Shown here piece by piece: positions 37,935 through 49,234 of a stretch of 64,000 nucleotides of DNA (positions within the stretch are counted from its first letter, which is position 1; every line of letters starts with the position of its first letter). The notes below the pieces were generated by a model. The model was given only the letters and a program-made list of their open reading frames with translations. It was not told the origin of the DNA and did not search any database. This DNA comes from Gammaproteobacteria bacterium (GTDB taxonomy: Bacteria > Pseudomonadota > Gammaproteobacteria > Xanthomonadales > SZUA-36), in NCBI GenBank assembly GCA_030431095.1, contig JAUIJU010000015.1:1-64000 (forward strand), given 5' to 3'. The position numbers and the translations under genes are program-made.

Positions 37935-39434
37935 ATGTGCGGAATCATCGGAATCGTCGGTCGTGACATGGTGGCCCCGGCCATCTACGACGCCCTGACC
38001 ATGCTGCAGCACCGGGGCCAGGATGCCGCCGGCATCGCCACCCTGGATGGCCACCGCCTGAACCTGCACAAGGACAACGGCCTGGTCAGCGACGTATTCC
38101 GTGACTCGAGCGACATGGCCGGGTTGATGGGCAACGTGGGCATCGGGCACGTGCGTTACCCCACCGCCGGTGGTGACAACTCCGCCGAAGCGCAGCCGTT
38201 CTACGTCAATTCTCCCTACGGCCTGGCCCTGGGTCACAACGGCAACCTGATCAATACGCGGGCACTGGCCGAAGAACTGTTCGAAAGCGACCGGCGCCAC
38301 CTGAACACCGAATCCGATTCCGAGTTGCTGCTCAACGTGCTGGCCCATGAACTGGCGGCGGCGCGGGGCGACAACCTGACCCCGGAAGACATCTTTCGCG
38401 CGGTCGACGGCGTGCATCAGCGTTGCGAAGGCGCGTACGCCGCCATCGCCCTGATCGTGAACCAGGGTGTGCTCGGTTTTCGTGATCCCTGGGGCATTCG
38501 ACCGGCGGTCCTGGGTCAGCGTGAAACCGACAAGGGCATGGAGTACGCCATCACCTCGGAAAGCGTCGCGCTCGACGCTATCGGCTTTGAACTGGTGCGC
38601 GACCTCAAGCCGGGCGAGGCCGTGTTCATCAGCCGGGAAGGGGCCTTGTACAGTCACGAAAGCCCGCTGGCCAAGCCCCTGACACCGTGTATTTTCGAAC
38701 ACGTGTACTTCTCCCGGCCTGAATCCATGATGGACGACGTGTCGGTCTACAAGGCCCGGTTGCGCATGGGCGAGTCGCTGGCACGCAAGATTCTGCGTGA
38801 GTGGCCCGACCATGACATCGACGTGGTGATCCCGGTCCCCGACACCAGCCGTACTTCGTCCCTGCCGTTGGCTTACGAACTGGACGTCAAGTATCGCGAA
38901 GGCCTGATGAAGAACCGCTATATCGGGCGAACCTTCATCATGCCCGGCCAGGCGGAGCGCCAGAAGTCGGTGCGCCGCAAGCTCAACCCGGTGGGGCTGG
39001 AGTTTCGCAATAAGAACGTACTGCTGGTCGATGATTCCATCGTGCGGGGAACCACGTCCCGGCAGATCATCCAGATGGCCCGCGAGGCGGGCGCCAACCA
39101 GGTCTATTTCGCTTCTGCCTCGCCGCCCGTTCGGCACGCCAACATTTACGGTATCGACATGCCGGCCACTGCCGAGCTGGTGGCGCACGGGCGAACCGTG
39201 GAAGAGATCCAGGCTTTCCTGGGCGCGGATCGGTTGATCTACCAGGACCTGGACGACCTGGTCAGCGCCTGCCGGGAGGGCAATGAGAGCATTCGCCGCT
39301 TCGACACCTCGTGCTTTTCCGGCGACTACATCACCGGCGTGGAGCCTGGCTACCTGGAGGCGCTGGAAACGCGACGTTCCGACGCGGTCAAGGAAACGCG
39401 CCGCGTCGCCAACCTGGCCCGGCGCGTGAGCTGA
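37935..39434 (+). CDS. purF: Amidophosphoribosyltransferase
   Basis: This 499-residue enzyme catalyses the first step of purine synthesis, making phosphoribosylamine from PRPP and glutamine. After Met removal Cys2 (MCGIIGIVG) is the glutaminase nucleophile. The N-terminal Ntn domain includes HRGQDAAGIA and HNGNLIN. The PRPP-binding loop VLLVDDSIVRGTTSRQ marks the transferase domain. Length and order after cvpA are canonical. It closes the long housekeeping operon begun at asd or fimV. Confidence 0.97.
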   Translation: MCGIIGIVGRDMVAPAIYDALTMLQHRGQDAAGIATLDGHRLNLHKDNGLVSDVFRDSSDMAGLMGNVGIGHVRYPTAGGDNSAEAQPFYVNSPYGLALGHNGNLINTRALAEELFESDRRHLNTESDSELLLNVLAHELAAARGDNLTPEDIFRAVDGVHQRCEGAYAAIALIVNQGVLGFRDPWGIRPAVLGQRETDKGMEYAITSESVALDAIGFELVRDLKPGEAVFISREGALYSHESPLAKPLTPCIFEHVYFSRPESMMDDVSVYKARLRMGESLARKILREWPDHDIDVVIPVPDTSRTSSLPLAYELDVKYREGLMKNRYIGRTFIMPGQAERQKSVRRKLNPVGLEFRNKNVLLVDDSIVRGTTSRQIIQMAREAGANQVYFASASPPVRHANIYGIDMPATAELVAHGRTVEEIQAFLGADRLIYQDLDDLVSACREGNESIRRFDTSCFSGDYITGVEPGYLEALETRRSDAVKETRRVANLARRVS

Positions 39435-39507: not shown

Positions 39508-40971
39508 TTGACAGAGAAATCAAAAAGGGAGCCGATGTCCAAGGTGGATACCGCCTGGCTGCGCATGGAGCAGCCTTCCAACCTCATGATGATCACCGGG
39601 GTGATTGGCTTCGACGGTCCCCTGGACGACGATCGCCTGCTGGAGACGGTGGAGCGGCGCCTGCTCAAGTTCGACCGGTTCCGCCAGAAGGCTGTCGATA
39701 CCGCGGCCGGGGCGCGCTGGGAGTTCGACGAGGACTTCGACCTGCGCTCACACGTGCGCCGCGTGGCCTTGCCCGGAAAGGCGGACCGCGAAGAACTGGA
39801 GTTGCTGGTGGCCGACCTGGCGTCGACGCCGCTGGACCACTCGCGTCCCCTGTGGCAGTTCCACGTGGTGGAGAATTACGTCGATGGGCCGGCCCTGGTG
39901 GTGCGTATTCACCATTGCATCGCGGATGGCATCGCGCTCGTACAGGTGTTCCTGTCCCTGACCGACCAGAGCGCCGATGCCGCCCCCGCGAAGGCGGATG
40001 CCGCCGAAACCGACGAATCACGCCATCATGCCGCACCGGTGTTTCAGCGCTTGCTGGAGCCGGCCCGGGAGGGGCTCGATGCCGCCCTGCACCTGGGCCA
40101 GGCGGCCTGGGAAGAAGGGATCACCCTGCTGCAGGAACCCGGTCGGGTGGCGCGGTATGCCCACGAAGCGGGAGAGATCCTGGGTGAACTGGCTCATGCC
40201 CTGGCCTTGCCCAATGACCCCCGAACGCGGCTCAAGGGGCGCCTCGGCGCGCGCAAGCAGGTTGCCTGGGTCGAGCCCCTGCCGCTGGACGAGGTCAAGG
40301 CCGTGGGGAAGGCCTTTGGCTGCACGGTGAACGATGTGCTGATCGCCTGCGCTTCCGGGGCCGTGCGCCGCTTTCTCCTCGAGCATGGCGGTTCGGGCGA
40401 TGCCGATCACGACGTGCGCGCCACGGTGCCGGTCAATCTCCGGCCGCTGGAGCATGCACTGGAATTGGGTAACCACTTCGGCCTGGTGTTCCTGGACCTG
40501 CCAATCAGCGTGGGCAACCCGCTGGAGCGCCTCTACGTGGTCAACGACCGCATGACCGAGCTCAAGGCCTCGCGCCAGGCGGCCATGACCTTCGGCTTTC
40601 TCGCGGCGTTGGGCATGGGTCCTTCGGCCCTGCAGAAACCCGTGCTGGACGTGCTGAGCGAGAAGGCCTCCACGGTACTGACCAACGTGCCCGGCCCGCA
40701 GGTGCCGCTTTACCTGGCGGGGGCGAAGATGCGGGAACTGATGTTCTGGGTGCCGCAAAGCGGCAGCATCGGCATGGGTATCAGCATTCTGAGCTACGAC
40801 GCCCGCGTGTTTTTCGGTCTGATCGCCGACCGTCGACTGGTCCCCGATCCGGCCGCGATCACCCGGCGTTTTCACGCCGAATTCGAGCAACTGCTCTACC
40901 TCTCGTTGATGCTGCCACTGGAGGCGCGCTGCCCGACGGACCACGCCGAGCGCTTGCTGAACGGGGGCTGA
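39508..40971 (+). CDS. Wax ester synthase/diacylglycerol acyltransferase (WS/DGAT) family protein
   Basis: This 487-residue protein belongs to the WS/DGAT family, which joins acyl-CoA to a fatty alcohol or diacylglycerol. The acyltransferase motif HHxxxDG is intact: HHCIADG at 135-141. SRPLWQF (112-118), the central NDVLIA and the C-terminal NVPGPQVPLYLAGA (family NVPGP) are present. TTG 39508 is preferred because AGGAG lies 9 nt before it; an ATG at 39535 is possible but its purine run is too close. It begins a cluster with a phasin, an acyl-CoA-binding protein and an acyl-CoA reductase. Wax ester rather than triacylglycerol is inferred from the reductase. Confidence 0.93.
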   Translation: MTEKSKREPMSKVDTAWLRMEQPSNLMMITGVIGFDGPLDDDRLLETVERRLLKFDRFRQKAVDTAAGARWEFDEDFDLRSHVRRVALPGKADREELELLVADLASTPLDHSRPLWQFHVVENYVDGPALVVRIHHCIADGIALVQVFLSLTDQSADAAPAKADAAETDESRHHAAPVFQRLLEPAREGLDAALHLGQAAWEEGITLLQEPGRVARYAHEAGEILGELAHALALPNDPRTRLKGRLGARKQVAWVEPLPLDEVKAVGKAFGCTVNDVLIACASGAVRRFLLEHGGSGDADHDVRATVPVNLRPLEHALELGNHFGLVFLDLPISVGNPLERLYVVNDRMTELKASRQAAMTFGFLAALGMGPSALQKPVLDVLSEKASTVLTNVPGPQVPLYLAGAKMRELMFWVPQSGSIGMGISILSYDARVFFGLIADRRLVPDPAAITRRFHAEFEQLLYLSLMLPLEARCPTDHAERLLNGG

Positions 40972-40974
40972 GGC

Positions 40975-41826
40975 CTATTCGAGCTCAGCCAGCGCGCAAT
41001 CCACGTCCAGTCGCTCCATGGCGTCGCGAGGGTTCATTTCAGAGGCTTGCACGTACAGCTCGGTGACACGATCCAGCTGGCCGTCGCCGTACATCATGTA
41101 CAGGCCATTGCCGTATTCCATCCGCGCGATGGGTGATTCGGGGGCCAGCGCGACGGCGCGTTCGAAGTGCTCTTCCGCCTTGTCGGGGCTGGCGCCGTAC
41201 GTCATGGCGCCGATCATCTTGCCGATCTTGTCGACGATTTCCGCGTGGTACAGACCGAGCGCAGTATGCGCTTCGGCGTGATCGGGGGCCAGTTCCAGCG
41301 CCCGGTCCAGGCTTTCCTGGATGCGTCCGCCGATGCCCTGGCGGAGCGCCTTGACGACCGAGATCGACTGGCTGTAGCGCCCCAGGTTGAAGGCGTGAAA
41401 ATACCAGGTATTGGGATCGTCCGGCAGGACCGCCGCGGCCGCTTCCGCGCGGTCGGCCGCCGCCTTGTACAGCTCGCGCTGCAGCTTGTCGTCATCCACC
41501 AGGTAATGCGCATAGATGCCGGCGGCCTTGTTGGCGGCGGCGTGCCCCAGGGGGCCCAAGGCCGTGCCGAGTTCGATGGCGGATTCGAAATCGCCGGCGT
41601 GGAAGGCGCGCCAGGCGTCCTGCAGACGGGAGGCCAGCGAGGTTTCGTCGCCATCGTGGTCCCCGGGCGCTGCCTCGGGGTGCGCCTGGAGCACCGCGGC
41701 GACGTGTGTTGCGTCCGGCCAGGGCTCGCAATCGCCCCGGTGCAAATCGGGCCAGGCCTCGTGGAGCCGCTCCCCGTCATAGGTGTACGGCGCGGCGTCG
41801 TGTGGAAACGGACGGCTGATGCTCAC
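40975..41826 (-). CDS. TPR-repeat protein
   Basis: This 283-residue soluble protein contains several tetratricopeptide-like helix pairs, e.g. WRAFHAGDFESAIELGTALG, SLDRALELAPDHAEAHTALG and AEEHFERAVALAPESPIARM. The N-terminal 60 residues (His/Asp/Trp-rich) are distinct. It starts at GTG 41826 with GGAG 8 nt upstream. It converges with the WS/DGAT gene (3 nt between stops) and diverges from the phasin gene; a 20-bp palindrome lies between. A role in assembling lipid-granule proteins is possible but unproven. Confidence 0.75.
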   Translation of the reverse strand: MSISRPFPHDAAPYTYDGERLHEAWPDLHRGDCEPWPDATHVAAVLQAHPEAAPGDHDGDETSLASRLQDAWRAFHAGDFESAIELGTALGPLGHAAANKAAGIYAHYLVDDDKLQRELYKAAADRAEAAAAVLPDDPNTWYFHAFNLGRYSQSISVVKALRQGIGGRIQESLDRALELAPDHAEAHTALGLYHAEIVDKIGKMIGAMTYGASPDKAEEHFERAVALAPESPIARMEYGNGLYMMYGDGQLDRVTELYVQASEMNPRDAMERLDVDCALAELE

Positions 41827-41868
41827 GGGTGAGCTCCGTGGTTGCCGCGGCCGGTTCCCGGTCGGTCG

Positions 41869-41888
41869 ATTAGTGTGATCACTCTAAT
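41869..41888. promoter_or_regulatory. 20-bp palindromic operator between TPR and phasin genes
   Basis: ATTAGTGTGA-TCACTCTAAT is palindromic at 18 of 20 positions (mismatch only at the sixth base of each arm). It lies 43 nt before the TPR start and 57 nt before the phasin start, so one dimeric or paired-dimer regulator could control both. Its size and form suit a TetR-family protein, one of which is encoded 0.7 kb away. Confidence 0.6.
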
Positions 41889-41945
41889 TTATCTGTCCAG
41901 AATGGCGTCCAATGATTGAGCTACCCCCCATCGAGGAGGTTTGAA

Positions 41946-42431
41946 ATGGCAAATAAGACGCTGAACAAAAAGGTAACCGCGAAAGGCCCTGCAGGCAAGC
42001 TGACCGACCAGGTGACCGGTTCGGCCCGGGAATTGATGCTGGCCGGCCTGGGCGCGCTGTCCATGACCCGCCAGGAAGGTGGCAGGCTGGTGGAGCAGGG
42101 CAATCGACTGTTCGACAGGCTTGTCGAGGAAGGTACCCGGTTCGAGCAGGGCGCCCGCAAGGACGTCGAAGGCAAGGTCACCGGTCTGCGTGGTGGTGTC
42201 GAGTCGCGCGTCGCGGCCGTGCGTGAGCAAGCCAGCGGCAACCTGGTACGACTGGAAGGCCTGTTCGAAGAGCGCGTTGCGCGCGTTCTCGGTCGGCTGG
42301 GCGTGCCCACCGCCGATGACGTGAACAAGCTGTCCGCACGCGTGGAAAAACTGTCCGAGCAAGTCGCCGCACTGGCCGACAGGCAAGGCGCCAGGGCGAC
42401 ATCGCGCAAGGCGGCCAGAAACGCGGCCTGA
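41946..42431 (+). CDS. Phasin (PHA/lipid granule-associated protein)
   Basis: This 161-residue protein has a lysine/alanine-rich ends pattern and an amphipathic core: ELMLAGLGALSMTRQEGGRLVEQG, then FDRLVEEGTRFEQGARKDV. This is the PhaF/PhaI-type phasin signature (LAGLGA...G...F..LV..G). A leucine-zipper-like segment (ADDVNKLSARVEKLSEQVAAL, about 124-144) would oligomerise. Phasins coat polyester or lipid inclusions. GAGGAGG precedes ATG 41946. It is monocistronic with a strong terminator after it. No PHA synthase is in the window; with WS/DGAT and reductase neighbours it may coat wax-ester droplets. Confidence 0.88.
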   Translation: MANKTLNKKVTAKGPAGKLTDQVTGSARELMLAGLGALSMTRQEGGRLVEQGNRLFDRLVEEGTRFEQGARKDVEGKVTGLRGGVESRVAAVREQASGNLVRLEGLFEERVARVLGRLGVPTADDVNKLSARVEKLSEQVAALADRQGARATSRKAARNAA

Positions 42432-42483
42432 CCGGTCGCCAAACAGGGTTCTCCCTCGCACTCCATGCAGGGGTGTTTTGCAG

Positions 42484-42509
42484 GGCCGGCGCCAGCCGGC
42501 CTTTTTTTT
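42484..42509 (+). terminator. Intrinsic terminator after the phasin gene
   Basis: GGCCGGC, loop GCCA, GCCGGCC followed by eight T. It lies 53 nt past the phasin stop. Confidence 0.92.
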
Positions 42510-42556
42510 GCCTGCGGCCTGGTCCGCCCAGCCTGGCGTTCACCCCCGGCAACCGC

Positions 42557-43219
42557 CTAGGCCCCCATGTATTCCCTCGCCAACTCCCGGAACTGTTCCG
42601 CCTCAGCGTTGGCGAGGTACGGGATAAACAGGTACAACACCCGCGCCGCCGCCGCGGTCAGCGCACTGCCGTCGGCCAGGCCGGCGGTGTCGCGGATTTC
42701 CGCCCATGCGATCCAGAAGGTCATCTGCTGCAGGGTGTTGTTCACCAGGGCCGCTTCGTCTTCGGGTGAGATGGACATGACTTCGGCATCGCGCAGTCGC
42801 CCCACCAGGTGGTACAGGGCGGCTTCCTGGCGCCCGAGCAGCCCAACGATGGCCGGTCGCAGACGATCGATTCGCGTGCACAGCTCCGCCAGGTCACGGT
42901 GGACGAAGCGGTATCGCCCCATGGTTTCGAACAGCAGGTGCAAACGCAGGTACAACTCCTCGATGCCCGGCGCCTGGTCACCTTCGATCGGTTCGAGAAG
43001 CGGTGAGAGTTCCACCAGGTAACGTTTGAACAGTTCCAGGGCGATCTCGTCGCGATGCCGAAAGTGGTAGTAGAGATTGCCGGGACTGATGTCGGCTTCC
43101 AGCGCGATCTCGTTGGTCGACACGTTGGGTTCGCCCTGGTCGTTGAACAGGGCCAGGCTGGTCTGCAGGATCAGCTCCCGGGTGTTCCGGCGCGCGCCCT
43201 CCGGGGATTTTTTGCTCAC
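42557..43219 (-). CDS. TetR-family transcriptional regulator (PhaD-like)
   Basis: This 220-residue protein has an N-terminal helix-turn-helix: TRELILQTSLALFNDQGE, then STNEIALEADISPGNLYYHF (about 34-53). The C-terminal ligand domain is helical and hydrophobic. The pattern resembles PhaD and related TetR proteins near PHA and acyl-CoA genes, which respond to acyl-CoA derivatives. It starts at GTG 43219, 16 nt after the acyl-CoA-binding protein gene, as a two-gene operon. It is a good candidate to bind the palindrome at 41869-41888. Confidence 0.88.
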   Translation of the reverse strand: MSKKSPEGARRNTRELILQTSLALFNDQGEPNVSTNEIALEADISPGNLYYHFRHRDEIALELFKRYLVELSPLLEPIEGDQAPGIEELYLRLHLLFETMGRYRFVHRDLAELCTRIDRLRPAIVGLLGRQEAALYHLVGRLRDAEVMSISPEDEAALVNNTLQQMTFWIAWAEIRDTAGLADGSALTAAAARVLYLFIPYLANAEAEQFRELAREYMGA

Positions 43220-43235
43220 CGGACCAATCGCCCGC

Positions 43236-43502
43236 CTAGTCCACCTGGCCGCCCAGGGCCTTGACCAGGTCCACGTAACGTTCCTGCGCCTGGTCCCGGG
43301 GCGTGCCTTCGAGTTTTTCCCAGGCCTCGTACTTGGCGAGGCCGACGAAATCGAAGAACCCCGGCTTGTCGCCGCTGACGTCGCCTTCGCTCCCCTGCTT
43401 GTAGAGCGCGTAGAGCTTCAGCAGGGTGTCGTTGTCCGGCTTCTGATCGAGTTGTTTCACGGCCTCGGTGGCCGCCTGGAACCGCACATCGGTCTCTGTC
43501 AC
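43236..43502 (-). CDS. Acyl-CoA-binding protein
   Basis: This 88-residue ACBP-family protein has the four-helix motif: LLKLYALYKQGSEGDVSGDK, then GFFDFVGLAKYEAWEKLEG and a final YVDLVKAL helix. The tyrosine and lysines that hold the acyl-CoA head group (YALYKQ, K-W region) are present. GTG 43502 was chosen because GGAGG lies just upstream and the length fits; a GTG at 43514 lacks a ribosome site. It would buffer long-chain acyl-CoA for the reductase and WS/DGAT. It diverges from the reductase gene across 110 nt. Confidence 0.92.
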   Translation of the reverse strand: MTETDVRFQAATEAVKQLDQKPDNDTLLKLYALYKQGSEGDVSGDKPGFFDFVGLAKYEAWEKLEGTPRDQAQERYVDLVKALGGQVD

Positions 43503-43612
43503 ATCCCCTCCCACGGCGTCCGGCGGCGATGGCCGGAATGCCTTCTGCTAATATCCGGAAAACTGTCTTTGATCGTACCATGTCCCCGTCGGGGGGCATC
43601 CAGGAAGGGCTC

Positions 43613-45601
43613 ATGAATTACCTCATCACTGGTGGCACCGGGTTCATCGGCAAACACCTCGTTCGTGAACTGCTGCAGCGCCCGCGTGTTGGCAAGGTCT
43701 ACCTGCTGGTGCGCAAGGGTTCGAAACAGAAGTTCAACATTCTGAAAGCGGAACTGGGCAAGCCCGGGGAGAAGCTGGTGGCTGTCACCGGCGACCTGAC
43801 CCGCAAGCGCCTGGGCATCGCGCCCAAAATGCGCCAGGAACTCGACGGCGCCATCGACCACGTATTCCACCTGGCGGCGGTGTATGACCTCGAAGCCGAT
43901 ATCGACGCGCAGTGGACCGCCAACGTGGACGGCACCCGCAACGCGGTGCAGCTGGCCAACGAGATCGGCGCCCGCCGCTTCCATCACATGTCCTCCATTG
44001 CCGCTGCCGGACTCTATCCCGGCGTGTTTCGTGAAGACATGTTCGAGGAAGCGATGGAGCTGGACCATCCGTACTTCCGAACCAAGCACGATGCCGAAGC
44101 CGTGGTGCGGCAAGAATGCGACATTCCCTGGCGCGTGTACCGACCCGGAATCGTCGTCGGACATTCGGAAACCGGCGAGATGGACAAGGTCGACGGGCCC
44201 TACTACTTCTTCAAGGGCATCCAGAAAATGCGCAGCCTGCTACCGTCGTGGATGCCCACCCTGGGCATCGAGGGCAGCCGCATCAACCTGGTGCCGGTCG
44301 ATTACGTGGCGGCGGCGACCGTGCATATCGCGCATAAGCCGAAACTCGATGGCAGGGCGTTCCACCTGACTGAACCCAAACCACGACGCATCGGCGAAAT
44401 TCTGAATCTGTTCGCCGAGGCCGCGCATGCGCCAAAGATGACGATGCGTTTCGACGCGCGCATGTTCAGCTTCGTTCCGGCCAGCGTGCGCAACGCGGTC
44501 AGCATGTTGCCGCCGGTTCGCCGAATCGTGAACCAGGTGCTGGGCGACCTGGGCCTGCCGCGGGACATCCTGCGCTTCGTCAACTACCCGACCCGTTTCG
44601 ACAATCGCGACGCCGAGGAAGCGCTCAAGGGCAGCGGCATCAAGGTGCCGCGCCTGGAGGACTACGCCTGGCGGCTGTGGGACTACTGGGAGCGTCACCT
44701 GGACCCGGACCTGTTCATCGATCGCAGCCTGAAGGGCCACGTCGGCGGCGAGGTGGTGGTGGTAACCGGCGCCTCATCGGGCATCGGCAAGGCCACGGCA
44801 CTGATGATGGCCGAGGCGGGGGCCCGGGTGGTGCTGGTCGCGCGCAGCGAGGAAGGCCTGAAGGAGACGCAGGCGCACATCGAAGAGCTGGGAGGCGAGG
44901 CGCACAGTTACCCCTGCGATCTGACCGACCTGGATGCCTGCGATGCGCTGATCGACGACATCGTGGCCGACCTGGGCGGCATCTGCGTGCTGGTCAACAA
45001 TGCCGGTCGCTCCATCCGGCGCTCCATCGCGCACTCCTACGACCGTTTCCACGACTTCGAGCGCACCATGCAGCTGAATTATTTCGGCAGCCTGCGCTTG
45101 ATCATGCGCTGCCTGCCGCACATGACCGCCGCCGGCGCCGGACAATTCGTCAACATCTCATCCATCGGCGTACTCAGCAACGCACCTCGGTTCTCCGCTT
45201 ACGTGGCGTCCAAGGCTGCGCTGGACGCTTTCTCACGTTGTGCGTCCTCCGAGTTCAGTGATACCGGCGTGGCGTTCACCACGGTCAACATGCCGCTGGT
45301 GCGCACGCCCATGATCGCCCCAACGAAGATTTACGATCACGTGCCCACCATCAGCCCGGAAGAGGCCGCCGACATGGTCAGGCAGGCCGTGATTCACCGG
45401 CCGCAGCGCATCGCCACGCGCCTGGGCGTCTTTGCCCAGGTGCTGCACGCGGTCGCGCCCAAGGTCTCGGAGATCGTCATGAACAGCGCGTTCCGGATGT
45501 TTCCCGACTCGGCGGGTCGCAAGGGGGTGGATGCCGGCCAGACCCGGGCCAGCCAGGAACAGATCGCGTTTGCCAGCCTGATGCGGGGCATCCACTGGTA
45601 A
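43613..45601 (+). CDS. Two-domain fatty acyl-CoA reductase (alcohol-forming)
   Basis: This 662-residue protein has two Rossmann modules. The first has TGGTGFIG (6-13) and Y154xxxK158. The second is a short-chain dehydrogenase with TGASSGIG (385-392), NNAG (462-465) and Y530xxxK534. The layout and many segments, such as GHSETGEMDKVDGPYYFF and the C-terminal MRGIHW, closely match what I recall of the Marinobacter FACoAR enzyme that reduces acyl-CoA to fatty alcohol in two NADPH steps. The length (about 660) agrees. Fatty alcohol would feed the WS/DGAT gene upstream. ATG 43613 is preceded by AGGAAGGG. Confidence 0.92.
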   Translation: MNYLITGGTGFIGKHLVRELLQRPRVGKVYLLVRKGSKQKFNILKAELGKPGEKLVAVTGDLTRKRLGIAPKMRQELDGAIDHVFHLAAVYDLEADIDAQWTANVDGTRNAVQLANEIGARRFHHMSSIAAAGLYPGVFREDMFEEAMELDHPYFRTKHDAEAVVRQECDIPWRVYRPGIVVGHSETGEMDKVDGPYYFFKGIQKMRSLLPSWMPTLGIEGSRINLVPVDYVAAATVHIAHKPKLDGRAFHLTEPKPRRIGEILNLFAEAAHAPKMTMRFDARMFSFVPASVRNAVSMLPPVRRIVNQVLGDLGLPRDILRFVNYPTRFDNRDAEEALKGSGIKVPRLEDYAWRLWDYWERHLDPDLFIDRSLKGHVGGEVVVVTGASSGIGKATALMMAEAGARVVLVARSEEGLKETQAHIEELGGEAHSYPCDLTDLDACDALIDDIVADLGGICVLVNNAGRSIRRSIAHSYDRFHDFERTMQLNYFGSLRLIMRCLPHMTAAGAGQFVNISSIGVLSNAPRFSAYVASKAALDAFSRCASSEFSDTGVAFTTVNMPLVRTPMIAPTKIYDHVPTISPEEAADMVRQAVIHRPQRIATRLGVFAQVLHAVAPKVSEIVMNSAFRMFPDSAGRKGVDAGQTRASQEQIAFASLMRGIHW

Positions 45602-45626
45602 GGCGCGACGCCGGGCGCCGTATCGT

Positions 45627-46862
45627 TCAGCTCGCGGCGCGCAGCAGGTCCTCGAGCTCGTCCAGCACCGTGGCCAGGTCGCGTCCCACCGTGGCGTGGC
45701 CATCCAGGTCGTGGTTGATGGAATCGAGCAGGCTGCGATCCGGGTCGTCCAGCCGTTCGTGGTTGAGGCTCATGCCGTAATCGGCAAGCACCGGCTCGAG
45801 GGTTTCGACCTGGCGCCGCAGGTCCGCCCGCGTGACCTGGAAGGCGTGCTCGCACAGCGCGGTGCGGCTGGCGTAACTGAACACATTGGTGAAGAACAGC
45901 TCGCGGTCGTCGCGCTCGGGTTCGAGCAGCACCAGGTCTGTCGCGGGATGGCTGGTGTGGTAACGGCGAAAACCCACGTGCATGCGCGACTGGATCAACG
46001 CCCGGAAGGTCTGCGACAGAATCAGGGGCAGGCCGCCGCGCATCAGCGTGGCCAGCGGCACCTCTTCATCGTCTCCGGCGTCGTAGGGAACCAGCGGATT
46101 GATGCCGATGAACAGGTCGACGCCACGTTCCAGGGCCACCGAGGCATGCAGCGTGCGTCGCAGCGCGCCGTCCACGTAATGCCGTCCGTCAATTTCAACC
46201 GGCGGATACAGGCCGGGGAGGGCGGCACTGGCCTGCACCGCCCGCGAGATCGGCACCCCGCGATGACCCTCGTCCCCGAAGCGCACCGAGGAGCCACTGT
46301 CGAGGTCCACCGCCACCACGTACAGCTCACAGTCCAGCGCGTCGAAGCGGTTGCCCTTGCCGTGGGTTTCGAACGAGTGTTGCAGGAAGCGGTGTATCTG
46401 CTCGTTGTCGTAGACGCCGCTGGGCAGGGCGCGCCCCAGTTCGGTAATGGTTTCCGACAAGGTGGCGCTGGCGGGGTTGCGCATGATGTGGAACAACGCG
46501 TCGCGCAATACCGCCGGCAGTTTCATGGCGCGCTGGAAATACTCCCGGTACGCCGGTCGCAAGAACAGTTCCGGCACGAATTTCAGCGAGGCATGCTGGC
46601 TGCCCATGAAGATGCGGCACTGTTCGGTGCAGGAAATGCCGTTGGCCAGCGAGGCGGCGATGAAAGCGCCGGCGCTGACACCGACGTAGACGTCCAGTCG
46701 GTGCAGATCGAGTCCGTCGATGCTTTCTTCCAGCGCCCGCAGGGCGCCGAGCTCGTAAACCGCGCCCACCGGACCGCCACCGGCCATGGCGAGGCCCAGG
46801 GATGGGGAGCGGTCGCGCCCCGTGAGCGGCGCCGGACGCGACGCCTGGTGTATGGTCAGCAT
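45627..46862 (-). CDS. Patatin-like phospholipase
   Basis: This 411-residue serine lipase has the patatin signatures: the oxyanion loop AGGGPVGAVY (27-36), the nucleophile S63 in GVSAG (61-65) and the catalytic Asp in DGA (231-233). The C-terminal 150 residues are helical. Patatins hydrolyse acyl esters of phospholipids or neutral lipids, so it could release fatty acids from the stored lipid; this is an inference from context. ATG 46862 was chosen as the family start. It converges with the reductase gene (25 nt) and diverges from the next gene (74 nt). Confidence 0.92.
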   Translation of the reverse strand: MLTIHQASRPAPLTGRDRSPSLGLAMAGGGPVGAVYELGALRALEESIDGLDLHRLDVYVGVSAGAFIAASLANGISCTEQCRIFMGSQHASLKFVPELFLRPAYREYFQRAMKLPAVLRDALFHIMRNPASATLSETITELGRALPSGVYDNEQIHRFLQHSFETHGKGNRFDALDCELYVVAVDLDSGSSVRFGDEGHRGVPISRAVQASAALPGLYPPVEIDGRHYVDGALRRTLHASVALERGVDLFIGINPLVPYDAGDDEEVPLATLMRGGLPLILSQTFRALIQSRMHVGFRRYHTSHPATDLVLLEPERDDRELFFTNVFSYASRTALCEHAFQVTRADLRRQVETLEPVLADYGMSLNHERLDDPDRSLLDSINHDLDGHATVGRDLATVLDELEDLLRAAS

Positions 46863-46936
46863 GCGATGTTCGAGCCTGGTCGTTTGTCGAAATTTTACCC
46901 ACCCCCCACGATGCGCGCCAGCCGAGGGTACGGATC

Positions 46937-47656
46937 GTGAACGCGAAGGACGCTCTGCGCGTCGAGCTCGAGGCCAGCCACGCACAGGCGGAGCGGCTGC
47001 GGGCGCCGGGTTTCCCCCGTGCAGCCCTGGAAGCCGTGCAGGCGTTCCAGCGTCGTCGCCTGGCACGCACCTACGATGACCTCTCGCGTCAGCCGCGGTA
47101 CGGCCCGGCCGTGCAGTTTTTTCTCGAAGAGCTCTATGGTGGCCGTGATGCGCAGGCGCGGGACCGGCAGGTCGCGAAGGCCTTGCCCATCATGCAGGCC
47201 ACCCTGCCGGGGCGCCTGCAGGAGACGCTTGCCGACGCCTTTCGGCTGCAGGCTCTGAGCATGGAACTGGACATCCGCCTGGCCGAGGGTCTGCAACGCG
47301 ACGGTGGCTCGCTGGACGTGGCGCGCTACGCCGAACTGTATCCCGAGGTGCCGCGAGCTCGGCGCGAGGACCAGATCGCACTGATCCACCAGCTGGCGCT
47401 GGAACTGGACCGCGTGGTGCGCCTGCCACTGGTGCTGGGGCTCATCAAGGCCATGCGCGGCCCGGCCCGCGCCGCGGGTTTCAGCGCCTTGCAGGCGTTT
47501 CTCGAGCGCGGGCTTCGCGCATTTCGCACCTTGCGGGGCGCGGTTGAATTCGCCGACATCGTGCGGCGCCGTGAAACCCGCATCATGAACCGCCTGTATG
47601 CCGGCGCGCAGGATCCGTTCGGCGATCCGCCGGAAGGCGAGGGTGGTGACCCCTGA
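46937..47656 (+). CDS. Conserved hypothetical protein with FFLEELYG motif
   Basis: This 239-residue, all-helical soluble protein is rich in arginine and glutamate. It contains YDDLSRQPRYGPAVQFFLEELYG and KALPIMQATLP. I recall similar FFLE-LYG hypothetical proteins beside lipid genes in other gammaproteobacteria but know no function. It has no signal peptide or cysteine-rich site. It starts at GTG 46937 and diverges from the patatin gene, so the two may share a regulatory region. The C-terminus is acidic and glycine-rich. Linkage to storage lipid metabolism is inferred only from position. Confidence 0.65.
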   Translation: MNAKDALRVELEASHAQAERLRAPGFPRAALEAVQAFQRRRLARTYDDLSRQPRYGPAVQFFLEELYGGRDAQARDRQVAKALPIMQATLPGRLQETLADAFRLQALSMELDIRLAEGLQRDGGSLDVARYAELYPEVPRARREDQIALIHQLALELDRVVRLPLVLGLIKAMRGPARAAGFSALQAFLERGLRAFRTLRGAVEFADIVRRRETRIMNRLYAGAQDPFGDPPEGEGGDP

Positions 47657-47671
47657 GGAGCTCTCGTGGAA

Positions 47672-47965
47672 TTACCCGTCCTGGAATTCGCAACCGAAGT
47701 GTTCGCGCAGGTAGCGGATGATTTCCTGTTCGATGGGTCCCTTGAGCATGGCCAGCATGAAGCCCAGGTGGGCCTGAACGTGGATGTCGTCGTCGGTGAC
47801 GTCGATTTGGCCCTGTACACCGGGGCGCTCGAAGTGGATGGTGTCTCCGTCCCAGCCATAGTCGATCCCGAATTTCTCGGCCAGGTCGCGGGACAGGTCG
47901 TCGGCCGCCTGCTGGGCCGCTTCACGGTCCATCTGGTGGCGGGCATGGATATCGATACGGGACAT
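47672..47965 (-). CDS. Polyhydroxyalkanoic acid system (PHA_gran_rgn) family protein
   Basis: This 97-residue protein matches the PHA granule-region family: RQ...AQQAADDLSRDLAEKFG, a WDGDTIHFERPGVQGQIDV strand pair, then LGFMLAMLKGPIEQEIIRYL. Members occur near PHA genes but their role is not established. ATG 47965 was chosen because AGGA lies 8 nt upstream; a GTG at 47971 is too close to it. TAGAAT at 47997-47992 is a likely -10. It converges with the gene at 46937 (15 nt between stops). It strengthens the storage-granule interpretation of this region. Confidence 0.85.
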   Translation of the reverse strand: MSRIDIHARHQMDREAAQQAADDLSRDLAEKFGIDYGWDGDTIHFERPGVQGQIDVTDDDIHVQAHLGFMLAMLKGPIEQEIIRYLREHFGCEFQDG

Positions 47966-48112: not shown

Positions 48113-49234
48113 TTGAGCCAGGACGACGACAAACTGCAGGCGGTGCGGGAACGCATCAACACGCTGGATGCCGAGATCCAGCGTCTCATCAACGAGCGTG
48201 CCGAACTGGCTTTCGAGGTCGGTCGCAGCAAGGGAAATCTCGCCAGCGCCGCCGATTTCTACCGGCCAGAGCGCGAGGCGCAGGTACTGCGTGGCGTACT
48301 GGAGCGTAACCAGGGTCCGCTCGCGGATTCGGAAATGCTGCGCCTGTTTCGCGAGATCATGTCGGCCTGCCTGGCGCGCCAGGAGCCGCTCAAGGTGGCC
48401 TACCTGGGACCCGAAGGCACCTTCACCCAGCAAGCGGTGTATCGGCACTTCGGCCATTCCGTGCTCGGTGTCGGCCAGGCCACCATCGAAAGCGTGTTCG
48501 AGCAGGTGCAGGGTGGCGAGGCGGATTTCGGCGTGGTGCCGATCGAAAATTCCACCCAGGGCGTGGTCAGCCACACGCTCGACCTGTTCATCGATTCGCC
48601 GCTGAAGATCTGCGGCGAAATCGAACTGCGCATTCACCACAACCTGATCACCCGCGCCACCGGCCTGTCGGTGATCGACCGGGTATACGCGCACCAGCAG
48701 TCGTTCTCCCAGTGCAAGGGCTGGCTCAAGCGCAATCTGCCGGGCGTTGAGTTGCTGGCTGTCAGCAGCAACGCCGAGGCCACGCGTCGGGTGCGCAACG
48801 CGCCCGAGGCGGCCGCCATCGCCGGCCTCAATGCGGCGGAGATTTACGGGGTGCCTGTGCTGTTTTCCAACATCGAGGATCAACAGGACAACACCACCCG
48901 TTTCCTGGTCATCGGGCGGGAGCTGTTCAGCGCTTCCGGCGACGACAAGAGCACCGTGCTGCTGGCCGGCGACGAGGGGCCCGGACTGCTGCACACATTG
49001 CTGGCGCCGCTGGCCACGCACGGCGTGAACATGACCCGCATCGAATCACGTCCCGCGCCCGGCGGCAAGTGGGAGTACGTGTTTTTCATCGACGTGGACG
49101 GCCACGCCGAGCAGGACCCACTGAAATCCGCACTGGCCGATATGGATGAATTGGGCGGCAGTTGCCGCCTGTTGGGTTCCTACCCGCGGGCCGTGCTGGC
49201 GCGCTTGCCGGGAAGCGAAGAGGACACGCCGTGA
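48113..49234 (+). CDS. pheA: Bifunctional chorismate mutase/prephenate dehydratase (P-protein)
   Basis: This 373-residue protein makes phenylpyruvate from chorismate. An AroQ mutase domain (about 5-95, VRERINTLDAEIQRLINERA) is followed by a prephenate dehydratase domain (YLGPEGTFTQQA, PIENSTQGVV, DNTTRFLVIG with the catalytic TRF). A C-terminal ACT domain (TRIESRPAPGGKWEY) allows phenylalanine feedback. TTG 48113 with GGAG upstream gives the usual N-terminus; an ATG at 48059 would add residues encoded by a GC-rich hairpin. It heads a coupled operon: hisC overlaps by GTGA. Confidence 0.95.
   Translation: MSQDDDKLQAVRERINTLDAEIQRLINERAELAFEVGRSKGNLASAADFYRPEREAQVLRGVLERNQGPLADSEMLRLFREIMSACLARQEPLKVAYLGPEGTFTQQAVYRHFGHSVLGVGQATIESVFEQVQGGEADFGVVPIENSTQGVVSHTLDLFIDSPLKICGEIELRIHHNLITRATGLSVIDRVYAHQQSFSQCKGWLKRNLPGVELLAVSSNAEATRRVRNAPEAAAIAGLNAAEIYGVPVLFSNIEDQQDNTTRFLVIGRELFSASGDDKSTVLLAGDEGPGLLHTLLAPLATHGVNMTRIESRPAPGGKWEYVFFIDVDGHAEQDPLKSALADMDELGGSCRLLGSYPRAVLARLPGSEEDTP

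Follow-up and report, generated by a model that had tools for sequence, protein, structure and literature searches.

Gene content and layout of the block

A block of nine genes was found at positions 39535-47965 of the window, the term used here for the whole stretch of 64,000 nucleotides that was analysed (contig JAUIJU010000015.1 of a gammaproteobacterium, lineage Xanthomonadales; SZUA-36). The block, bordered by purF on the left and by pheA-hisC-aroA-cmk-rpsA on the right (short names of our own, derived from Pfam domains), brings a phasin together with a fatty acyl-CoA reductase and a wax ester synthase, and this combination is the subject of the present work. Gene identities were assigned by Pfam and NCBIfam profile scans of the window proteins, revealing matches for all eight genes that a first-pass annotation of the sequence had named; a ninth cassette gene, coding for an FFLEELY-motif protein, had been overlooked there.

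The wax ester synthase / acyl-CoA:acyltransferase (WS/DGAT, or WS; 478 amino acids (aa), 39535-40971, + strand; PF03007, PF06974) matched TIGR02946 along residues 1-454 with 415.7 bits (cut-off 309.95) and carries HHCIADG at residue 126, an intact form of HHxxxDG, which we take to be the active-site motif of these enzymes. The gene had been recognized correctly in the first-pass annotation, but the start proposed there, 39508, is an upstream TTG. Solved structures 7nxg and 6chj are sequence relatives of this protein, which accounts for the only TIGR02946 match that the genome of the window gave at E 1e-20 and lies beside the reductase. The two-domain fatty acyl-CoA reductase (662 aa, 43613-45601, + strand; NF005539/PRK07201, PF07993 (NAD_binding_4) and PF00106 (short-chain dehydrogenase)) matched NF005539 with 980.9 bits (cut-off 549) along residues 1-662, with both reductase domains covered, and keeps in both halves the presumed nucleotide-binding motifs GxxGxxG and TGxxxGxG and the YxxxK motif, likewise assumed (motifs at 7, 154, 385 and 530). 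The former enzyme is predicted to form wax ester or triacylglycerol and the latter to convert acyl-CoA into fatty alcohol. The patatin-like lipase (411 aa, 45627-46862, - strand) matched PF01734 (E 9.4e-26, 91.6 bits, cut-off 27.7), and what we take to be its catalytic dyad of GxSxG plus DG[AG] is intact, as GVSAG at 61 and DGA at 231.

The phasin, a candidate droplet coat (161 aa, 41946-42431, + strand), matched PF05597 (E 2e-30, 105.9 bits, gathering score 28.8) and TIGR01837 (97.8 bits, cut-off 94.7), and has an amphipathic stretch at about residues 43-66. The PHA_gran_rgn protein (about 97 aa, 47672-47965, - strand), of the second family associated with polyhydroxyalkanoate (PHA) granules, matched PF09650 (E 5.8e-28, 97.4 bits, cut-off 26.6) and TIGR02610 (87.3 bits, cut-off 40.25). 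The remaining genes encode the FFLEELY-motif protein (239 aa, 46937-47656, + strand; NF047641, 198 bits, cut-off 55), a TPR-repeat protein (283 aa, 40975-41826, - strand; PF13428 and other TPR models), an acyl-CoA binding protein (ACBP; 92 aa, 43236-43514, - strand; PF00887, E 1.3e-28) divergent from the reductase, and a TetR-type regulator (220 aa, 42557-43219, - strand; PF00440, PF13972), whose nearest solved relatives are 3rh2 and 3nnr, the latter presumably a Marinobacter protein.

When the less characterized proteins were modelled with AlphaFold2, PHA_gran_rgn adopted a small alpha/beta fold of the order E-H-EEEE-H (mean pLDDT 87.2). Its best Foldseek match was weak (E 9.4e-4, TM 0.49; an SRPBCC / KA1-like fold was considered), and VIA-align gave mixed, mutually unrelated matches such as human spermine synthase residues 6-113 (Z 12.0, 90 residues aligned, rmsd 1.9) and Rv2186c (Z 10.0, 93 aligned, rmsd 2.8). 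The FFLEELY model was all-helical (mean pLDDT 91.3), with no convincing match among solved folds (Foldseek best E 0.54; VIA-align best Z 4.7); the model thus suggests no known fold that we could name, and a new one is likewise not claimed. When sequences were searched against solved proteins, neither the phasin nor PHA_gran_rgn had a match at E 1, and that of FFLEELY was at chance level (best E 0.73).

The strands mostly alternate along the cassette, resulting in three divergent promoter regions of 119 (TPR and phasin), 98 (ACBP and reductase) and 74 bases (patatin and FFLEELY). The remaining intergenic gaps measure 3-25 bases, except for the 125 bases between the stops of the phasin and TetR genes; TetR and ACBP lie on the same strand, 16 bases apart. 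A shared operator was sought in 66 divergent ACBP-reductase regions (those of 65 loci plus the window), but no dyad was present in more than 3 of the 66 and none is claimed. TTGACC-type 8-mers appeared in up to 19 of these regions, probably as -35 boxes, and are absent from the window's own region.

Conserved neighbourhood of the reductase

To define the neighbourhood independently of the other genes, 80 named loci were chosen by reductase similarity alone (61-72% identity; the best 80 among the matches listed) and analysed together with the window. Open reading frames (ORFs) were predicted in each locus, compared all against all, resolved for overlaps and clustered into families ranked by the number of loci. 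Besides the reductase itself (81 loci), the families found were TetR (72), phasin (57), ACBP (49), patatin (42), TPR (40), PHA_gran_rgn (32), FFLEELY (29) and WS (25), so that the eight commonest neighbours of the reductase are precisely the remaining eight genes of the cassette. The next-ranked families were housekeeping ones, namely pheA (20), hisC, class-V aminotransferase and aroA (15 each). Annotation of ten representatives of rarer neighbour families revealed proteins without evident relation, an ABC transporter, an aminotransferase and a peroxiredoxin among them. The conserved synteny that the first-pass annotation had put forward as a check was thus observed.

Similar counts were obtained by tblastn at E 1e-3 in the 80 loci: TetR 72, ACBP 71, phasin 58, patatin 42, TPR 40, PHA_gran_rgn 34, FFLEELY 33 and WS 26. 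At E 1e-10 the phasin was detected in 54 of the 80, always within 9 kb of the reductase, midpoint to midpoint. Many of these loci are truncated by the end of a contig. Where both 10-kb flanks were complete (41 loci), the phasin was present in 35, TetR in 38, ACBP in 38, TPR in 24, patatin in 23, PHA_gran_rgn in 22, FFLEELY in 19 and WS in 12.

Among the loci inspected, those of the window's family and of Wenzhouxiangella have the phasin upstream of the reductase, those of Lysobacter, Pseudoxanthomonas and Silanimonas have it downstream, and betaproteobacterial loci show yet another arrangement. As gene order and strand vary between lineages, the linkage outlasts rearrangement.

Fifteen loci, several of them on short contigs and five titled Marinicella, had TetR, ACBP and reductase but none of the other six genes (L006, L020, L021, L023, L025, L026, L028, L030, L040, L041, L045, L047, L050, L059 and L071); these could perhaps represent the oldest core, or the loss of the remaining genes. 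In one genome (G006, C160:13024-14385) the WS/DGAT gene at the locus contains one in-frame TAG. In another (G113, L105 1309-2505), a stretch 23-27% identical to the PHA synthase (PhaC) queries was seen about 2 kb from a reductase without other cassette genes nearby.

Phasin, wax genes and PHA synthase across genomes

The first-pass annotation had stated that PHA synthase is absent from the window, and four PhaC queries indeed gave no match in it; the same queries found none in the 80 loci either, as far as their stretches reach. A phaC gene elsewhere in the genome had been named there as a possible explanation of the phasin, and the genome of the window (87% complete) gave neither a PhaC_N nor a class III TIGR01836 match.

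The phasin, reductase, WS, PHA_gran_rgn and PhaC were then scored in 61 genomes, that of the window and 60 relatives, counting PhaC when a strong PhaC_N match or a TIGR01836 match above cut-off was present and leaving out weak PhaC_N matches alone and a weak phasin in G056. Phasin and reductase were both found in 42 genomes, phasin only in 5, reductase only in 3 and neither in 11 (Fisher p 2.8e-6, treating here and below the genomes as independent), that is, the reductase was present in 42 of 47 phasin-bearing genomes vs. 3 of 14 phasin-free ones. The phasin was also associated with WS (p 1.4e-4). For phasin and PhaC the corresponding counts were 17 with both, 30 with phasin only, 4 with PhaC only and 10 with neither (p 0.75), PhaC being present in 17/47 phasin-bearing vs. 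4/14 phasin-free genomes. None of the 47 phasin genomes lacked both PhaC and the reductase/WS pair. All 45 reductase-bearing genomes carried WS, and only two WS genomes had no reductase.

The pattern was sharper within the window's family (37 genomes), where the phasin was detected in 28, all of them with the reductase and only 3 with PhaC. Phasin and reductase were on one contig in 23 of these 28, with starts at most 7.4 kb apart, and on different contigs in the other 5. Neither class I/II nor class III PhaC was found in the remaining 25 of the 28, including the genome of the window, and 11 of these 25 are more than 95% complete. Therefore, in this family the phasin tracks the wax genes and not PHA synthase.

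A wider set consisted of 50 named genomes that carry both the reductase and the phasin (covering 50 of the 58 such loci); WS was present in all 50, including those without WS at the locus. This set overlaps the 61-genome one; G062 and G016, for example, share the same match coordinates.

The purF-pheA interval with and without the block

In the window, the block is inserted between purF (37935-39434, + strand) and pheA (chorismate mutase/prephenate dehydratase, 48116-49234, + strand; PF00800, PF01817, PF01842), both outside the cassette. The same two genes flank most or all of the block in seven relatives, with spans of 8.5-11.5 kb; by tblastn, WS and patatin are missing there from L002 and L004, patatin from L016 and FFLEELY from L085.

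In two genomes of the same genus as the window (G001 and G005, 98-99% complete) the block is absent and purF and pheA are separated by about 103 and 87 bases, respectively, and in two others (G023 and G031) serC alone, as we read the open frame, lies between them. In all four, the phasin, reductase, WS and PHA_gran_rgn gave no match anywhere in the genome. These four belong to two genera, with the reductase present in 4 of the 6 genomes searched in one and in 6 of the 8 in the other. As the block is absent from members of two mostly reductase-bearing genera, at least two losses of the cassette appear to be the simpler reading, as judged from the distribution of the genes by genus.

The genome of the window has a second, unlinked PF05597 phasin with a C-terminal DUF2188 (L081 8546-9289, contig C60), and a similar one is present in G004 (L083 8799-9611). 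The 18 kb surrounding the former gave no match to PhaC, and reading its translated ORFs by eye showed no other PHA gene. G001 and G005 are devoid of any phasin, so the second one, too, disappears along with the cassette. In the g9 genus (G013, G028, G033, G034 and G035), the ordinary phasin is accompanied by a longer protein, whose single frame gave several matches to the phasin domain (located at L084 5863-7494 and L091 5333-6574).

Discussion

The above results make it probable that the block is a nine-gene cassette for the storage of neutral lipid, most likely wax ester, with the phasin and PHA_gran_rgn at the droplet surface. The ACBP would supply acyl-CoA, part of which the two-domain reductase would turn into fatty alcohol, and WS/DGAT would couple this alcohol with acyl-CoA to give wax ester. 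The wax ester would separate as droplets, the phasin coating their surface and setting their size, probably with the help of PHA_gran_rgn, and the patatin lipase would mobilise the stored lipid. The TetR protein, whose gene adjoins that of ACBP and is divergent from that of the reductase, may sense acyl-CoA or a fatty acid and set expression, and the TPR and FFLEELY proteins could be structural or assembly partners. A droplet-coat role of the phasin is supported only by genome comparison: in the window's family, the phasin-family candidate coat proteins are genetically tied to the cassette. The stored lipid is very probably wax ester.

Several observations weigh against this reading. WS was detected at the locus in only 26 of the 80 loci, many of them cut by contig ends, and in only 12 of the 41 with full flanks. 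In a phylum-wide sample of 200 genomes, that of the window included, for which five candidates were scored per genome, the reductase was present in 9, and in 6 of these none of the other eight genes was nearby (stretches of 15-19 kb); neighbours were found in the window's own genome, in G129 (phasin, patatin, TetR and TPR) and in G047 (TetR and ACBP). Two extra genomes beyond this sample showed no cassette neighbours (G041) or TetR and ACBP (G039). The Fisher tests ignore shared ancestry, and for this organism the product (wax ester, not triacylglycerol), the droplet localisation and the ligand and direction of control of TetR are predictions from the genes. In the wider set of 50, PhaC of class I/II or III was detected in 33; therefore, the phasin could serve PHA there, although no PhaC was seen at the locus. 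Moreover, five relatives have a phasin and a class III PhaC without wax genes, three of them (G037, G048 and G057) with PHA_gran_rgn beside the phasin; in these three the pair precedes pheA by a few kb and PhaC is located elsewhere. Both families can therefore accompany PHA. Finally, alphaproteobacterial WS/DGAT genes have been described among genes of PHA metabolism in PMC10351704, so that WS/DGAT and PHA genes can also be neighbours.

The 33 genomes with PhaC, the three relatives G037, G048 and G057, and the incompleteness of the window's genome are what speaks for the phasin and PHA_gran_rgn serving PHA granules. The synthase would then have escaped the assembly, and proximity to the wax genes would reflect no more than a shared "storage" neighbourhood. 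We regard this as very unlikely, given the near absence of PhaC from the phasin genomes of the family, many of them almost complete, the lack of association between phasin and PhaC, the loci free of PhaC as far as they reach, and the disappearance of the phasin along with the wax genes in the four block-free genomes. A chance neighbourhood of unrelated genes, for which nothing was found in favour, is contradicted by the ranking of neighbours in the 81 loci and by the purF-pheA interval, which contains the block in some genomes and lacks it in others, and its probability is next to nil.

Two further alternatives leave the lipid store in place or concern the phasin alone. WS/DGAT enzymes are commonly bifunctional, so the store could be triacylglycerol or mixed acyl esters, the reductase delivering alcohol or aldehyde for another end and the phasin still coating the droplets. 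WS was unseen at 54 of the 80 loci, so the reductase and WS need not form one pathway everywhere, and some family members have several WS genes. On the other hand, the single WS of the window's genome adjoins the reductase, every reductase genome among the 61 has WS with only two cases of WS on its own, and the Marinobacter reductase MAQU_2507 is described as supplying the alcohol for wax ester (PMC10351704); hence this option appears rather unlikely to us. Instead of coating a surface, the phasin could also anchor the nucleoid or be an amphipathic chaperone of general function, since phasins are multipurpose proteins, with granule-nucleoid attachment (PhaF, PhaM) and stress reduction among the roles listed in PMC5658603. 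This is unlikely in view of its presence and absence together with the lipid genes and of the phasins described at inclusion surfaces in that same source, and the two roles are compatible.

Returning to the wax-ester storage cassette, the first-pass annotation had proposed that a phasin was reused as a wax-ester droplet coat. The genome comparison supports this proposal, but not an exclusive use: as both granule-protein families also occur with PhaC and without wax genes, their use is shared or switched. A more far-reaching reading, to which we give even chances, is that of a dedicated wax-ester carbonosome, in which two phasin families and FFLEELY, taken from or shared with PHA granules, would coat wax-ester droplets in the window's gammaproteobacterial family and in related Betaproteobacteria, the unlinked PF05597-DUF2188 phasin included. 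If so, the protein coat would have been conserved and the stored polymer exchanged.

To our knowledge, the coating of wax-ester droplets in Gram-negative bacteria is poorly known, and the locus offers, within a single block, candidate genes for the coat, for mobilisation and for control. Natural null genomes are at hand within one genus (G001 and G005 vs. G002-G004). In addition, with 25 of the 28 family phasin genomes devoid of detected PhaC, it appears that a phasin annotation by itself is not to be taken for PHA production.

Comparison with known systems

Within the literature surveyed (by title and start of abstract, with few subscription journals), only PMC10351704 was seen to connect gene clusters with both phasin and wax ester, and no paper joined phasin, reductase, WS and the absence of PhaC. 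The enzymes themselves were already known; what is new within this survey is the full gene combination and the pattern of phasin without PhaC. The first-pass annotation knew of no description of this exact combination; within this survey that holds for the full set, whereas parts of it appear in PMC10351704. There, Galvan et al. (2023) described, from Ushuaia Bay sediment, betaproteobacterial scaffolds with ACBP, WS/DGAT, a MAQU_2507-like short-chain dehydrogenase/reductase (SDR) and a PHA-system protein, one further scaffold with a phasin, and a scaffold of gammaproteobacterial origin on which WS/DGAT has SDR and ACBP nearby. Unlike here, the granule proteins were read as PHA metabolism, the words "Patatin" and "TetR" do not occur in the main text, and the passages available mention neither PhaC co-occurrence nor absence of the block, both of which are reported here.

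The predicted two-step route, reductase plus WS/DGAT, is the same as that of Marinobacter, where MAQU_2507 supplies the alcohol. The window reductase resembles MAQU_2507 in its length class, "MAQU_2507 type" being a label of our own. For reference, FCR1 (650 aa) is 40% identical to MAQU_2507 across 639 aa (PMC3522743), and the sediment homologues in similar neighbourhoods are 58.8, 59.2 and 61.9% identical to MAQU_2507, with a fourth at 49.5% (PMC10351704). What appears different in the window is that WS, reductase, ACBP, TetR, lipase and two granule-protein families are gathered in one block, of which six of the nine reductase genomes in the phylum-wide sample showed nothing nearby.

Regarding the phasins, PF05597 and PF09650 are both among the four phasin families listed in PMC5658603, which describes them for PHA granules, whereas here they are tied to wax genes, mostly without PhaC in the window's family. 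Precedents for a phasin on neutral-lipid inclusions are GA14 of Rhodococcus ruber, found also on lipid inclusions (PMC5658603), and PhaP1 of Ralstonia eutropha, for which a title cited in PMC6273058 indicates expression in Rhodococcus opacus and a mycobacterium. However, GA14 is a PHA phasin and PhaP1 a case of heterologous expression, whereas the phasin of the window appears, from its neighbourhood and its absence together with the wax genes, to be dedicated to the cassette.

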